DNA from: Actinomycetota bacterium
Lineage (GTDB): Bacteria; Actinomycetota; Geothermincolia; Geothermincolales; RBG-13-55-18
Direction of reading: 5' to 3'
DNA length: 64,000 nt
Assembly (NCBI GenBank): GCA_014360685.1
Contig: JACIXB010000011.1
Location: 62,001 to 126,000, forward strand
Shown: one piece after another, positions 39,478 through 47,602 of the stretch
How the letters are laid out: each line of letters begins with the position of its first letter
Numbering within the stretch: the stretch's first letter is position 1
Program-made: the position numbers and the translations under genes
The notes under the pieces: generated by a model
Databases searched by the model: none
What the model saw: the letters and a program-made list of their open reading frames with translations, nothing else
What the model was told of the DNA's origin: nothing

Positions 39478-41439
<1,962 letters not shown>

Positions 41440-41510: not shown

Positions 41511-41789
41511 CTATACTTCAGGTTTAACTTTTATTACAATGCCTTCTATTTCCACGCCGGTGGCGTTTTTCAGGAACTCCATGATCTCCTGTCTGCGCAT
41601 GTTCATCTCGTGGGCCCAGGCGTGTGACCTGACCCTTACCACCAATCTCTTCCCCCTGAAACCACAGGGCGTTCCCTCCGGGAACCTTCCCGACCCATTC
41701 CAAGCCCTTTTTATAGCCAGCAGGTCCTCCACTCTATCCAAACCCTCTCCGGCGAGCGCCTCCCTTAATATGCCGTTTATTTTCCTCAT
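41511..41789 (-). CDS. dciA: DUF721/DciA-like protein
   Basis: Protein of 92 residues with the DUF721 core LAIKRAWNGS and GFRGKRLVVRVRSHAWAHEM. DciA proteins load the replicative helicase DnaB where DnaC is absent. The place, between recF and gyrB, is typical of Actinomycetota. ATG with GGGGAGAAAA upstream. Confidence 0.85.
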   Translation of the reverse strand: MRKINGILREALAGEGLDRVEDLLAIKRAWNGSGRFPEGTPCGFRGKRLVVRVRSHAWAHEMNMRRQEIMEFLKNATGVEIEGIVIKVKPEV

Positions 41790-41986: not shown

Positions 41987-43030
41987 TTAACCGTGAAGGG
42001 CTCCGTGCTTTATTGAATCGAGGTCGATGGTTCTCCCGGCTGCCGCTTCCTGCACCCCGTCCGCGGAAGTCACCAGGGCCTGCGCTCTAGACCTTATGTT
42101 CCCGGCGAGCTTCTCCCGGTTCCGAGCGTCAAGCTCCGAGAAACAGTCGTCAAACAACAACAATGTCCTTCTTGAGGTATACTCCTCCTTTATCCTGGCC
42201 TGAACCAGCCTGCAGGCCAAGCAGAGCATCTTCTGTTCTCCCTGCGACCCCTCCCTCCTGATGTTCCTTCCGCCGAGGTAAAAAACAATCTCGTCCCTAT
42301 GCGGGCCGACGAGGGTCATCCCTCTTCTCGTTTCCGCCTCCCTCATTTTCCTTACCTTCTCCAAGTTATATTCTTCGTCCTCCGGGGAGAGATTCGAATA
42401 GTACTTCACTTCCACCTCTCCCATCCCCCATTCCCACATTTCCTCCTTCAACATATCAGAGAGAAGGCGTACCGCCGCTCCCCTCTCCCTAACCACGTCC
42501 ATTCCATACCTCACCAGTAGGAGATCCCAGCTTTGGACCTCTTTTACCCTGTTTATTTCTCTTCTCGTCATTCTTAAGGCCTCGTTTCTCTGTTTAAGAA
42601 TGCGGCGGTACTCCTTTATTATCTCCCCATAAGCGGGCTTGACGTCTTTTATCACCTCGTCCAAATACTTTCTCCTCCACTCCGGGTTGCCCTTGACTAT
42701 AAATATGTCCTCCGGAACGAAGGCCACCGCTCCCATCCCTTTAAAAACGCTTTTCTCCGCTTCCCCTTCTCTCCTCAAAATCGTCACTACCCTCTCCTCT
42801 ACCTCTCCCCCCATGCGCCCTTCGACCCACCCCTCGGGGGTCCCGTTTTTCACCATCTCTTTTAAGTCCGCCCCCTTTATAGACCTTCCTTCCACAAGTA
42901 AAAAAACGGCTTCGAGAAGGTTTGTCTTCCCTGCGCCGTTCCTTCCCGTCACCAGGTTTAAACCCGGCCCGAAATCTACCGCGAAATCTTTATAATTTCT
43001 GAAATTTTTCAGTCTTATTTCCCTCAGCAA
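41987..43030 (-). CDS. recF: DNA replication/repair protein RecF
   Basis: Protein of 347 residues, an SMC-like ATPase for gap repair and RecA loading. Walker A GRNGAGKTNLLEA, signature RREGSQGEQKML, Walker B TLLLFDDCFSELD. TTG start two bases after the dnaN stop, so translation is coupled. Its third codon positions are more A/T-rich than those of gyrA and rtcB, as in neighbouring dnaN and dnaA. Confidence 0.97.
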   Translation of the reverse strand: MLREIRLKNFRNYKDFAVDFGPGLNLVTGRNGAGKTNLLEAVFLLVEGRSIKGADLKEMVKNGTPEGWVEGRMGGEVEERVVTILRREGEAEKSVFKGMGAVAFVPEDIFIVKGNPEWRRKYLDEVIKDVKPAYGEIIKEYRRILKQRNEALRMTRREINRVKEVQSWDLLLVRYGMDVVRERGAAVRLLSDMLKEEMWEWGMGEVEVKYYSNLSPEDEEYNLEKVRKMREAETRRGMTLVGPHRDEIVFYLGGRNIRREGSQGEQKMLCLACRLVQARIKEEYTSRRTLLLFDDCFSELDARNREKLAGNIRSRAQALVTSADGVQEAAAGRTIDLDSIKHGALHG

Positions 43031-43032
43031 CT

Positions 43033-44121
43033 TCAGATCCTTATAGGCATGATTATGTACATGAAATCTTCTCTCCCCTTTTCTTTTATGAGCCCGGGTT
43101 TAAGCGGTTCATTAACGCCCACGACAACCGTGTCCCCTTCTATGGATGTGATACCGTCCTCGAGGAACTTCCCGTTAAACGCGATGGTCACCGGATCGCC
43201 CTTATAATCTACTTCCAGGGTTTCCTTTCCTTCTCCCACATCCCTCGATTCCGTATTCACTACTACCTTACCCTCTCCTATCTGGAGTTTTACCGTGCTG
43301 TTCACGAGGGAGACCCGCTTCAAGGCGTTTAAAAATTCTTCCTTCCTGATCTCCAAGGTTTTCTCCGTTTGCTCCGGTATAAACTGCTCGTAACGCGGGA
43401 ACTTACCCTCGATAAGCCTTACGGTGAATTCGATGTTCCGGTCCTCAAACTTCAGTTGGCCTTCATTATCGTCCCTATATACCTTTACCGTGCCCTCGCC
43501 CTTTACAATCCTTGAGAAGTTCAGGAGCGGCGCCGCGGGAACAATATAACTGCCTTTCTCCACCACCGTGTACCCGTCCTTCATCTTTTTCACGGCGAGC
43601 CTATAGCTGTCCGTGCTCACCAGCCTTATCTCGTCTTCATCTATCTCCATGTATATCCCCGTCAACGTGGGCCTCTTCTCATCCCTGGAGGCGGCTTTGG
43701 AAACCGCCTGAACGGATTTCGAGAACGTCGACTCGTCGAGTCCATCCACTATCAGAACGCCGACATCGGGGGCACTCGGGAAATCATCCGCGGGCATCGT
43801 GAATATCCTGAACAGGTTGTTCTCTCCCTTGACTTGCAGCTCACTTCCCTCCAGCTCTAAAACCAACTTCTCATCCCTTGAGTCTCTGAAGAGATCCAGG
43901 AGTATTTTGTGGCTGACGACACAAACCCCCTCGGTTTCCACGTTCGCGGTACAGCGGGTGGTCGAAGAGGATTCCAAGTCCGTCGTGAGTAATTCAACTC
44001 TATCGCCACGGGCTTCTATCTTCACCCCTGAAAGTATGGGCATGACGCTTCTTGAGCTTACAGAGTGCTGCACAAGCTGCAGTGCCTTTTGAAAATCCTC
44101 TTTCAAAACCTCGAGTTTCAT
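43033..44121 (-). CDS. dnaN: DNA polymerase III beta sliding clamp
   Basis: Protein of 362 residues forming the ring clamp. Three repeated clamp folds: N-terminal VLKEDFQKALQLVQHSVSSR, TTDLESSS, and the C-terminal MYIIMPIRI. The first ATG (44121) has AGGAGG eight bases upstream; a GTG directly before it is possible. It is between dnaA and recF as usual. Confidence 0.98.
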   Translation of the reverse strand: MKLEVLKEDFQKALQLVQHSVSSRSVMPILSGVKIEARGDRVELLTTDLESSSTTRCTANVETEGVCVVSHKILLDLFRDSRDEKLVLELEGSELQVKGENNLFRIFTMPADDFPSAPDVGVLIVDGLDESTFSKSVQAVSKAASRDEKRPTLTGIYMEIDEDEIRLVSTDSYRLAVKKMKDGYTVVEKGSYIVPAAPLLNFSRIVKGEGTVKVYRDDNEGQLKFEDRNIEFTVRLIEGKFPRYEQFIPEQTEKTLEIRKEEFLNALKRVSLVNSTVKLQIGEGKVVVNTESRDVGEGKETLEVDYKGDPVTIAFNGKFLEDGITSIEGDTVVVGVNEPLKPGLIKEKGREDFMYIIMPIRI

Positions 44122-44375
44122 CACGTATGCCTCCTTACTAATAAGACTTATATTAATACTTTTCAGTATTCATCTTCTTATTACTTGTTAAAAGGTTGAA
44201 AAACCACGGAAAGTAAGAGTTGGGCACGGATAACGGGGGCCAACGGTTGTGTAAAAGGGTGTGAAAAAACAGTGGAGGGGTGTGGATACGACGTGCGGTT
44301 CAATCGCAAGATGTACCGGGCACCCTCCATGAACCAACTACTTATAAACATCAGTCCTCCTTTTCAAGCTGATTT
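44122..44375. promoter_or_regulatory. dnaA-dnaN spacer, candidate oriC
   Basis: A/T-rich stretch (44140-44200) followed by three leftward DnaA-box-like 9-mers: TGTGTAAAA (44248-44256), TGTGAAAAA (44260-44268) and TGTGGATAC (44281-44289). In many Actinomycetota oriC lies between dnaA and dnaN. It may also serve as the dnaN promoter. Confidence 0.55.
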
Positions 44376-45710
44376 TCAACACTTTTTCAACCGATTGGTA
44401 ATTTTCTGGACCATATTGTATATTTCCCTTTTTTCCTTCATCAGTTCCCTGATCTTCTCTACGGAGTGGATGGCCGTGGAGTGGTGTCTGCCTCCCAGCG
44501 CGCTGCTGATGGCGGGAAGCGAAGCATCGGTCAGCTCGCGGCAGAGATACATGCAAATCTGGCGCGCCGTCACCAATTGCCTTGAGCGGTTGGCGCTCTT
44601 GAGTTGGTCGACGGTTATATTGAAACATTCCGCAGTGATGTTGATTATCTGGTCGATGGTGATATCAGGGGAGGCTTCCTCCGGAAGGATATCGTGCAGC
44701 ACCTCGGTGGCAAGATCAACACTTATGGGTTGTTTCACCAGGTTGGAGTATGCCACGACCCTTATGAGGGCGCCCTCAAGTTCACGGATATTGGATTCAA
44801 AGCGGGAGGCTATAAAGTGAATAACGTCATCCGGGACGTCTTTCTTATCCAGCTCGACCTTTTTCTTGAGAATAGCGATGCGGGTTTCAAGATCGGGAGG
44901 CTGAATGTCGGTGATCAGTCCCCATTCAAACCTCGATATCAACCTGTCTTCGAGGTTGGGAATATCTTTAGGTGGCCGGTCGCTGCTGAGGACGATCTGT
45001 TTATTATTATTGTGCAGGTCGTTAAAGGTGTGGAAGAACTCTTCCTGCATTCTCTCCTTGTTGGCCAGGAACTGAATATCGTCCACCAGCAGCATATCGT
45101 TGGACCTGTACTTCTTCTGGAAGCTCGGGACCCTCTTGTCTCGAATGGCATTAATGTAGTCATTAACGAACTTTTCGGTGGAAACGTAGGTGATCTTGAA
45201 GTTCGGGTACAGTTTCTTGGTGTAGTGTCCTATGGCGTTCATCAGGTGAGTCTTTCCCAAGCCCACGCCACCGTAGATATAAAGCGGGTTATAAGACGTG
45301 GGGTTCTCGGACACCGAGAGGGCGGCCGCGTGAGCAAATCGGTTGCTGGGACCCGTGACAAAGGTTTCAAAGGTAAACCTCGGGTTCAGGTCGGAAGAGG
45401 AGGTATCCTCCTCGAGAAGGTTAACGTCAAGAAAAAGCGGCTTTCTAACCCCCTTTTTTCTACGGTCCTTAAAGGTAAGCCTTACATCATTTACGCCATT
45501 AAAGGTCTCCTTTACTACCTCCCGTATAAGGTTGAGATAGCGCTTGTCCACCCACTCCTTGGTGAAGATGTTGTTGGTATAAAGTAAGAGCGTATTCCCG
45601 TCAACGCCGTCGAAATGTATGTTTTTAAGCCAGATAGAGGATGCGTCGGGTATGTTTTCCCTCATTCTTTCCACGCATTTTTCCCACAGATGGCTCGATT
45701 TAGAGGTCAT
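44376..45710 (-). CDS. dnaA: Chromosomal replication initiator DnaA
   Basis: Protein of 444 residues. Walker A GGVGLGKTHLMNAIGHY, Walker B LLVDDIQFLANKE, sensor-2 region SRFEWGLITD, and the DNA-binding signature GGRHHSTAIHSVEKI. Binds 9-bp DnaA boxes and melts oriC. ATG follows GGGGGATGATCC. It lies with dnaN-recF-gyrBA downstream and a GHKL-HTH protein gene upstream in the same direction. Confidence 0.98.
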   Translation of the reverse strand: MTSKSSHLWEKCVERMRENIPDASSIWLKNIHFDGVDGNTLLLYTNNIFTKEWVDKRYLNLIREVVKETFNGVNDVRLTFKDRRKKGVRKPLFLDVNLLEEDTSSSDLNPRFTFETFVTGPSNRFAHAAALSVSENPTSYNPLYIYGGVGLGKTHLMNAIGHYTKKLYPNFKITYVSTEKFVNDYINAIRDKRVPSFQKKYRSNDMLLVDDIQFLANKERMQEEFFHTFNDLHNNNKQIVLSSDRPPKDIPNLEDRLISRFEWGLITDIQPPDLETRIAILKKKVELDKKDVPDDVIHFIASRFESNIRELEGALIRVVAYSNLVKQPISVDLATEVLHDILPEEASPDITIDQIINITAECFNITVDQLKSANRSRQLVTARQICMYLCRELTDASLPAISSALGGRHHSTAIHSVEKIRELMKEKREIYNMVQKITNRLKKC

Positions 45711-45759: not shown

Positions 45760-46500
45760 TTATAGCGACAGAATGCTCCGCAAGTACGACTTGCCCATAT
45801 CGGACAGGAATCTTTTTCCATCTGAAGATCGCGTCACCAGCCCCAACCGCTCGAGCCTCACGAGTTCACGGTGGGCGGTACTCAGGCTTATTCCCAGTTC
45901 AGCGGAGACCTGGGAGGGTCCCAGGAACTCTTCCTCCGTGAGGAGAAAAAGAATGTTATTCTGGCGTTGGGAGAGCTCCTCCACCATGCCGTTATGAATA
46001 GTAGGGGAAACATCCATGTCTGAAATGGAAACAGAGATATAGGTTCCTCCACCGGGTTGACTGAACACGTTTAACTCCCCTCCGAGACTCGATATCTCTC
46101 TTTGGGCGAGGTAGAAGCCGAGGCCCACCCCACGGATTACGGAACGCTGCGCCTCGGTGGCCGTGGAGTAACCGGGTTCCATGGCGAGATCCAAACGGTT
46201 TATACCCGGACCGTTGTCGGAGATGTAGAACCGCTTGCGGGAGGGCTCTACAACCAGGGATGCGGAACACGGAACGGCATGGACGAGGTTGTCGATCAAC
46301 TCCCGAAGGGCGACCTCGGGGGGTTGCGCCACGCCGCCCTCCAAAGAGCTCAAGACTATATCCATCACCCTTTCGCGAAAGGCGTGAAAATCATCCGTGT
46401 GGACCTCATGGACCGCAAAACCGCTTCCGTTCGGAACGGCGATCCGGGTGTGAGGGGGCCTTATCGTCCATCCCGATTCAGGGTCCCTCGACCATTCCAT
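45760..46500 (-). CDS. GHKL ATPase fused to winged-helix domain
   Basis: Protein of 246 residues. A histidine-kinase-like ATPase: N box RELIDNLVHA, G1 DNGPGI, G2 RGVGLGFYLAQRE. A C-terminal winged helix follows (GPSQVSAELGISLSTAHREL, then VRLERLGLVTRS). No dimerisation histidine box or membrane span, so it is not an ordinary sensor kinase; an anti-sigma/SpoIIAB-like or regulator role is possible. The ATG at 46500 has AGAGGAGGTG upstream. It is 50 bases from dnaA, between dnaA and the origin-proximal spacer. Confidence 0.82.
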   Translation of the reverse strand: MEWSRDPESGWTIRPPHTRIAVPNGSGFAVHEVHTDDFHAFRERVMDIVLSSLEGGVAQPPEVALRELIDNLVHAVPCSASLVVEPSRKRFYISDNGPGINRLDLAMEPGYSTATEAQRSVIRGVGLGFYLAQREISSLGGELNVFSQPGGGTYISVSISDMDVSPTIHNGMVEELSQRQNNILFLLTEEEFLGPSQVSAELGISLSTAHRELVRLERLGLVTRSSDGKRFLSDMGKSYLRSILSL

Positions 46501-46690
46501 TTTTTCACCTCCTCTTCCGGCGAGGAGAAAAACCCTTGTAAGTAAAGGAAAAACCTTCGAAATAGGTTGAAACGGCGGGATGGATGTGCACAGCCTGACG
46601 ACCCTAAAAAAGCAGGAAATACGCACGAGCGGCTCTCGTGAATCAACCTCCCATACTCGTTAAAGTGCGCAAACAAAAGGCAAAACATAG

Positions 46691-46722
46691 TTTTCCACAA
46701 CTTTTTCAACAGCTGTTGATAA
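46691..46722. promoter_or_regulatory. DnaA-box cluster, candidate oriC core
   Basis: Three near-consensus DnaA boxes: TTTTCCACA (46691-46699), TTTTCAACA (46703-46711) and reverse TTATCAACA (46714-46722), with the perfect palindrome CAACAGCTGTTG (46707-46718). They lie in the spacer where gene direction diverges, left to dnaA-gyrA and right to rpmH-parB. That makes it a good alternative to the dnaA-dnaN spacer. Confidence 0.55.
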
Positions 46723-46899
46723 CCATAAGATCCCCGCCGCCGAGCTCGAAGCAAGATGGATTATAACAACGAAAGTGGCGGGTATTAAGGGGTATTTTTG
46801 ACAAAATGTTCGATTCATGTTGGCGGCGGTCCCCGCCGGCGGCTCCCCCGCCGTGGCCCGCCGGGACGGGCTACGTGCATGGCCATGAATCCCGCGCCG

Positions 46900-47012
46900 T
46901 CCCCGCCCCACCCCCAAAAGGGCGCGGAAACCGTCCAGTATGCGGTCCTTTTCCTTCTTTCCGGCCTTGCGGTATCTTTAGCCACCTCTTGGGTTATCCT
47001 CTTCCTGGTCAT
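46900..47012 (-). pseudogene. Transposase N-terminal remnant (frameshifted)
   Basis: Leftward from ATG 47012: MTRKRITQEVAK, then after a one-base frameshift YRKAGKKEKDRILDGF. This matches the N-terminus of integrase-core transposases (typically MTRKRLTQEVA..YRKA..KEK..ILDEF). The rest is lost. Confidence 0.6.
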
Positions 47013-47023
47013 GAGGCCCAACC

Positions 47024-47245
47024 TCAACCTCCCCACCTCTCCGGGGTCCTCGCCCTCGAGGACCTGCGGTGTTCCACGCTGAACCCCTCCGTGCCGTCCT
47101 TGTATTCCTTGAGCAGGGAGAAGAACCTCGCCTTGCCTATCCCCAGGAGCTCCTCCACCTCTCTTCCCCCCAGGTTTTTCTCCAGGTATACCATGAGCTA
47201 GGCCTTCACCTGTGCGGTGGTGAATCTCTTGTGGATGTGCTCCAT
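47024..47245 (-). pseudogene. Transposase N-terminal remnant (stop-interrupted)
   Basis: Leftward from ATG 47245 the reading is MEHIHKRFTTAQVKA, an in-frame TAG, then LMVYLEKNLGGREVEELLGI, GKARFFSLLKEYKDG and TEGFSVEHRRSS, ending at a TGA. It resembles the HTH start of integrase-core (IS481/ISNCY-like) transposases, with the catalytic part missing. A second remnant follows in the same direction. Confidence 0.65.
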
Positions 47246-47414
47246 GTCTCCGCCTCTCTTTTTGACCGCGCCTACAGTTTTCGATCTAAGCCGGGAGAAG
47301 TGCTGGAGGACAGGGGGAAGAGCCAGGAGGTCGTCTGCTGGAATATCTTAGTGCCCAGCGTTCAAGCTTAAACTGTCCGGTTTTTAATTTTATATGACAC
47401 GATCTTGCGGTTCC
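47246..47414. other. Intergenic upstream of rpmH
   Basis: Short spacer between the transposase remnants and the rpmH promoter. No gene seen. Confidence 0.4.
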
Positions 47415-47467: not shown

Positions 47468-47602
47468 ATGAAGAGAACCTATCAACCAAATACCAGAAAA
47501 AGGAAAAAGAACCACGGGTTCCGCAAGAGGATGAGCACCCGAGCGGGTCGCGCTATACTCAAGAGGAGGAGGCTGAAGGGCAGGAAGAGGCTAAGCGCAT
47601 AA
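47468..47602 (+). CDS. rpmH: 50S ribosomal protein L34
   Basis: Protein of 44 residues with the L34 signature [18 protein letters not shown] and [20 protein letters not shown] follows GGAGGTAAAG. The next gene, rnpA, starts five bases after the stop. Confidence 0.98.

Follow-up and report, generated by a model that had tools for sequence, protein, structure and literature searches.

Gene content of the dnaA region

The stretch of DNA analysed here (64,000 nucleotides; hereafter, the window) carries a gene for a protein that combines a GHKL ATPase domain with a winged helix, and which is termed the GHKL gene below. An earlier note, made from the sequence alone, had placed this gene beside dnaA, and identification of the surrounding genes, including rnpA and yidC on the divergent side, confirmed this placement. 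The coding genes of the region are as follows:

45760..46500, minus strand: coding sequence of the GHKL-winged-helix protein, 246 aa (open reading frame with ribosome-binding site; HATPase_c and HTH_IclR matches above the Pfam cut-offs; conserved family)
44376..45710, minus strand: dnaA (TIGR00362, 549 bits), on the strand of the GHKL gene and 49 bp beyond its end
43033..44124, minus strand: dnaN (TIGR00663)
41987..43030, minus strand: recF (TIGR00611)
41511..41789, minus strand: dciA (helicase operator; PF05258, 34.4 bits), between recF and gyrB
39478..41397, minus strand: gyrB (NF004189, TIGR01059)
47468..47602, plus strand: rpmH, read from the sequence, on the divergent side of the origin region and followed by rnpA and yidC

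Reading of the open reading frame on the minus strand places the start of the GHKL gene at an ATG at position 46500, with GAGGTG just before it. An inverted repeat at 46501-46532 (TTTTTCACCTC / GAGGAGAAAAA) overlaps this ribosome-binding site; it showed no significance across 12 relatives. Between rpmH and the promoter of the GHKL gene, positions 46870-47340 (minus strand) hold a reading frame that has decayed and is interrupted by stops (MEHIHKRFTTAQVKA*LMVYLEKNLGGREVEELLGIGKARFFSLLKEYKDG...); it had no Pfam match and is probably a transposase remnant.

Domain architecture and conserved motifs

Pfam searches of the window protein identified a HATPase_c domain at aa 62-159 (E = 1.1e-13; 52 bits against a cut-off of 26.4) and an HTH_IclR domain at aa 183-224 (E = 5.8e-7; 29.6 bits against a cut-off of 22). 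Motif conservation was assessed in an alignment (A4) with 34 relatives, which are approximately 23-71% identical to the window protein, and yielded the following elements, all encoded on the minus strand:

46276..46302, minus strand: N box, aa 67-75, ELIDNLVHA (E67, N71 and H74 invariant in alignment A4)
46201..46218, minus strand: G1 box, aa 95-100, DNGPGI (D95, G97, P98 and G99 invariant)
46114..46137, minus strand: G2 box and end of the ATP lid, aa 122-129, IRGVGLGF (G124 and G128 invariant; G126 conserved in 97%)
45778..45978, minus strand: winged helix, aa 175-241 (Pfam HTH matches; helices and strands in the AlphaFold2 model)

The protein is thus a member of the GHKL ATPase superfamily, with a Bergerat fold and N, G1 and G2 boxes. 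An AlphaFold2 model built from a 34-sequence alignment (mean pLDDT 89.3) starts with a hairpin at residues 17-33, which contributes two extra strands, and a helix at 38-53, followed by the Bergerat-type fold, a disordered linker at 164-172 and the winged helix at 178-232; the latter is modelled as helices 178-189, 195-202 and 206-218 with strands 222-224 and 230-232. Its recognition helix reads approximately STAHREL, with R211 conserved in 97%, and its wing carries GKR. Pfam searches of the window protein and the 34 members found no HisKA/DHp phosphoacceptor, PAS, receiver or sensor domain. The description given in the earlier note, i.e., all three nucleotide-binding boxes plus an HTH and neither a histidine box nor a sensor, therefore agrees with the Pfam matches, the motifs of the 34 relatives and the AlphaFold2 model.

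The note had also recognized no named family with this domain order, and the searches performed here concur. No NCBIfam model reached its cut-off for the window protein, PADLOC returned weak winged-helix matches only, and across Pfam, NCBIfam and PADLOC nothing besides generic domains scored above cut-off; a search of one literature library found no paper on the dnaA-linked GHKL-winged-helix protein. We propose a dnaA-linked GHKL-winged-helix family, defined by a single copy per genome, presence of both domains and a location directly upstream of dnaA.

Comparison with two better known groups helps to delimit this family. The catalytic domain of histidine kinases (PF02518) shares the HATPase_c fold and the N, G1 and G2 boxes, whereas the GHKL protein lacks DHp/HisKA and sensor domains and has no response regulator beside its gene. 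GHL ATPases of the MutL/GyrB type share the invariant N-box glutamate (E67), which occupies the site of their catalytic base, and MutL/Mlh1 models match the region of the N and G1 boxes weakly; in contrast to these enzymes, the GHKL protein has no transducer (S5-like) domain and continues, after a short linker, into the winged helix.

Distribution and linkage to dnaA

A match to the GHKL protein with E ≤ 1e-10 was found in 23 of 59 relatives. A profile search of 397 genomes sampled across the phylum (threshold 1e-15) detected the family in 155 genomes, i.e., about two fifths, representing 86 of 240 genera. The best E value was ≤ 1.4e-40 in each of these 155 genomes, and no scores fell between approximately 1e-40 and 1e-15. 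Nearly all positive genomes had one match; in the few with two, a frameshift or a long linker appears to have divided a single gene into two matches. Outside the phylum, the search covered one other phylum and four single genomes. Among 100 genomes of the former, the phylum of an acidobacterium (G406), a single match passed 1e-14 (E = 4.4e-16), partial and confined to the ATPase part, and the GHKL-winged-helix family is, judging from these searches, not seen there. A single-protein scan of genome contigs found ordinary GHKL domains only, with 29-37% identity over the ATPase part.

Coordinates were compared in the 102 genomes with both a GHKL protein and a located dnaA. In 93 genomes the GHKL gene shares its strand and contig with dnaA and lies directly upstream of it; in another seven it ends a chromosome-sized record that starts with dnaA, such that the two genes are adjacent across the join of the closed chromosome, and in the remaining two a contig break separates them. 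None of the 102 genomes contradicts the linkage by carrying the gene away from dnaA. Conservation beside dnaA, the check proposed in the earlier note, hence extends to 100 of 102 genomes, very distant families included, and the scattering of homologs away from dnaA that the note had named as contrary evidence was not seen in this single-copy, linked family. In most genomes the gap between the two genes measures 8-61 bp, which fits co-transcription; larger apparent gaps occur where the GHKL part alone was matched. In the Eggerthella-type members examined, Pfam continues to recognize a C-terminal winged helix beyond a Pro-rich linker; the winged helix is kept even where this linker after the GHKL domain is long. 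By inference, carriers of the dnaA-linked gene include Eggerthella lenta, Cryptobacterium curtum and Atopobium parvulum (published genomes: PMC3035228, PMC3035227 and PMC3035223, respectively), and the phylum sampled is accordingly taken to be Actinomycetota.

Trees of the GHKL protein and DnaA from 27 genomes agree in their well-supported groupings, and the pairwise distances of the two proteins are correlated (Mantel r = 0.64; none of 2000 permutations reached this value), suggesting that the GHKL gene descended together with dnaA. Both proteins have long branches in the Atopobium-type (f19) and Eggerthella-type (f26) lineages, and the DnaA proteins of these lineages (loci L077 and L076) are unusually divergent, with 26-32% identity to the window DnaA. 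One genome (G007) cleanly lacks the GHKL gene, its dnaA facing rpmH directly, while a congener (G011) has it; this absence (locus L064) reads as a clean loss relative to the congener. Two further genomes of the same order (G016 and G017) also lack the gene. As it is cleanly absent from these three genomes, the GHKL gene is not needed in all lineages and is not universally essential. The G007 locus has DnaA boxes upstream of dnaA and a different promoter-like sequence, TAATAGAAT, close to dnaA.

Putative promoter, DnaA boxes and the origin region

The region upstream of the GHKL gene and the gap between dnaA and dnaN contain the following features:

46760..46769, minus strand: TTGTTATAAT, putative extended -10 element for joint transcription of the GHKL gene and dnaA (all 12 same-family relatives have TATAAT)
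46691..46722, both strands: upstream DnaA-box cluster, with TTTTCCACA (plus, 46691), TTTTCAACA (plus, 46703) and TTATCAACA (minus, 46714)
44248..44289, minus strand: second DnaA-box cluster, in the AT-rich gap between dnaA and dnaN, with TTTTACACA, TTTTTCACA and GTATCCACA

In the 12 same-family relatives, the TATAAT mostly occurs as an extended -10 element (TGnTATAAT), and the order is the -10 element, closely spaced DnaA boxes, a leader of approximately 200 bp and, last, the GHKL gene. A motif that precedes the -10 element, AAATnCCCCTTAA (window positions ~46777-46800; columns 55-77 of alignment A2), is kept in most but not all of the 12 relatives.

The cumulative GC skew has its minimum at 43-44 kb of the window; together with the AT-rich, box-containing gap between dnaA and dnaN, this suggests that the DNA unwinds beyond dnaA as seen from the GHKL gene. 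A bipartite origin is the probable arrangement: the GHKL-dnaA pair seems to be nested within it, between the two DnaA-box clusters, and the gap between dnaA and dnaN is the more likely place of unwinding. The location "between dnaA and the origin" given in the earlier note thus needs amendment: the GHKL gene lies inside the origin region, but DnaA boxes flank the gene pair, and the skew minimum and the AT-rich gap lie beyond dnaA. Similar arrangements occur in distant families, where DnaA boxes are found upstream of the GHKL gene and, at several loci, on both sides of the pair; one distant relative (L023), for example, has three boxes immediately before the GHKL gene and a further two immediately after dnaA.

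Upstream DnaA boxes are also present in relatives without the GHKL gene, which argues that these boxes belong to DnaA. No DNA site specific to the GHKL protein was found among the conserved elements upstream of the gene. A conserved palindrome near the promoter (TTATCAACAGCTGTTGAAAA) was considered as an operator for the GHKL protein and rejected, as it is a pair of DnaA boxes and persists in relatives without the gene.

Proposed function and alternative explanations

With confidence just above an even chance, we favor a role of the GHKL-winged-helix protein in regulating the dnaA operon or the origin through ATP-switched binding to DNA, a function inferred from the features described above. 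The protein would be a soluble DNA-binding switch encoded by the first gene of the dnaA operon and inherited with dnaA. ATP binding followed by hydrolysis, which would be slow given the invariant N-box glutamate, may shift the state of a dimer through the GHKL domain and the N-terminal hairpin; this state would in turn determine whether the two winged helices can bind DNA at the GHKL-dnaA promoter or in the origin region, and the ATP state could thereby be tied to DnaA supply or origin firing. As to the target, we give a slight preference to autoregulation of the dnaA operon over a direct effect on the origin or on DnaA. Two results count against the favored role: no DNA site specific to the GHKL protein emerged, and the gene is absent from G007, G016 and G017. 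Gene order around dnaA is commonly conserved in bacteria, for many reasons, and linkage alone is thus no proof of a functional tie.

That the GHKL protein acts directly on DnaA or on the structure of origin DNA (e.g., as an ATP-dependent roadblock or by aiding DnaA to assemble on the upstream boxes) rather than as a transcription factor strikes us as rather unlikely, although the strict linkage to dnaA, the position of the gene pair between two box clusters in the style of a bipartite origin and the long branches shared with DnaA in the f19 and f26 lineages would all suit such a role. The DnaA-box layout is, however, identical in relatives without the GHKL gene, and winged helices of the IclR, MarR and TrmB type belong, as a rule, to transcription factors. 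The stress or developmental switch suggested in the earlier note would make the protein a kinase or anti-sigma factor of a SpoIIAB/RsbW-like partner switch, serving a distant process, retained beside dnaA by old synteny and with an accessory winged helix. SpoIIAB is indeed the best, albeit weak, NCBIfam match, and like SpoIIAB/RsbW proteins (TIGR01925) the GHKL protein is small and soluble, with a GHKL domain, no phosphoacceptor histidine and the N-box glutamate found in SpoIIAB. We nevertheless regard this role as improbable, since the TIGR01925 match, at 28.6 bits, falls far short of the cut-off (135 bits), no STAS or sigma-factor gene occurs among the neighbors, and the extra winged helix is kept throughout the family; anti-sigma factors are not known to carry one.

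Descent from regulators of the COG2865 type through loss of the N-terminal domain appears highly improbable. These regulators likewise place a C-terminal winged helix after a GHKL ATP-binding domain, and a protein which we take to belong to this AlbA_2-HATPase_c_4-winged-helix group (DIP2311; PDB 3lmm) is, among the foldseek matches listed, the sole solved structure aligned over both domains (263 columns, E = 2.2e-6, TMq 0.48). The TM-score is low, though, none of the 34 members has a Pfam match to AlbA_2 (Schlafen-type) or HATPase_c_4, the window genome has no HATPase_c_4 gene, and the fixed link to dnaA further sets the family apart; where COG2865-type proteins have AlbA_2, the AlphaFold2 model has the short hairpin and helix. 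While the family may work like this group, it is not a member by these domain tests.

More tentatively, as a possibility somewhat short of even, the ATP-switched regulator favored here may represent an undescribed, phylum-deep control of initiation in Coriobacteriia and related lineages, in which a GHKL switch equipped with a winged helix and encoded within a bipartite origin would link dnaA expression or the firing of the origin to the ATP state of the cell. Control of replication initiation is poorly known outside E. coli, Bacillus and Caulobacter. AdpA and MtrA, DNA-binding proteins for which action at oriC has been proposed or demonstrated in Actinomycetota, have folds unrelated to that of the GHKL-winged-helix protein, and their genes are not known to lie beside dnaA. 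Present once per genome, apparently inherited vertically and kept in place next to dnaA, the GHKL gene is a specific candidate, open to experimental test, for a new way in which DnaA may be controlled in response to ATP. The many lineages concerned include Eggerthella, Cryptobacterium and Atopobium, and some of these bacteria live in the human gut and mouth.
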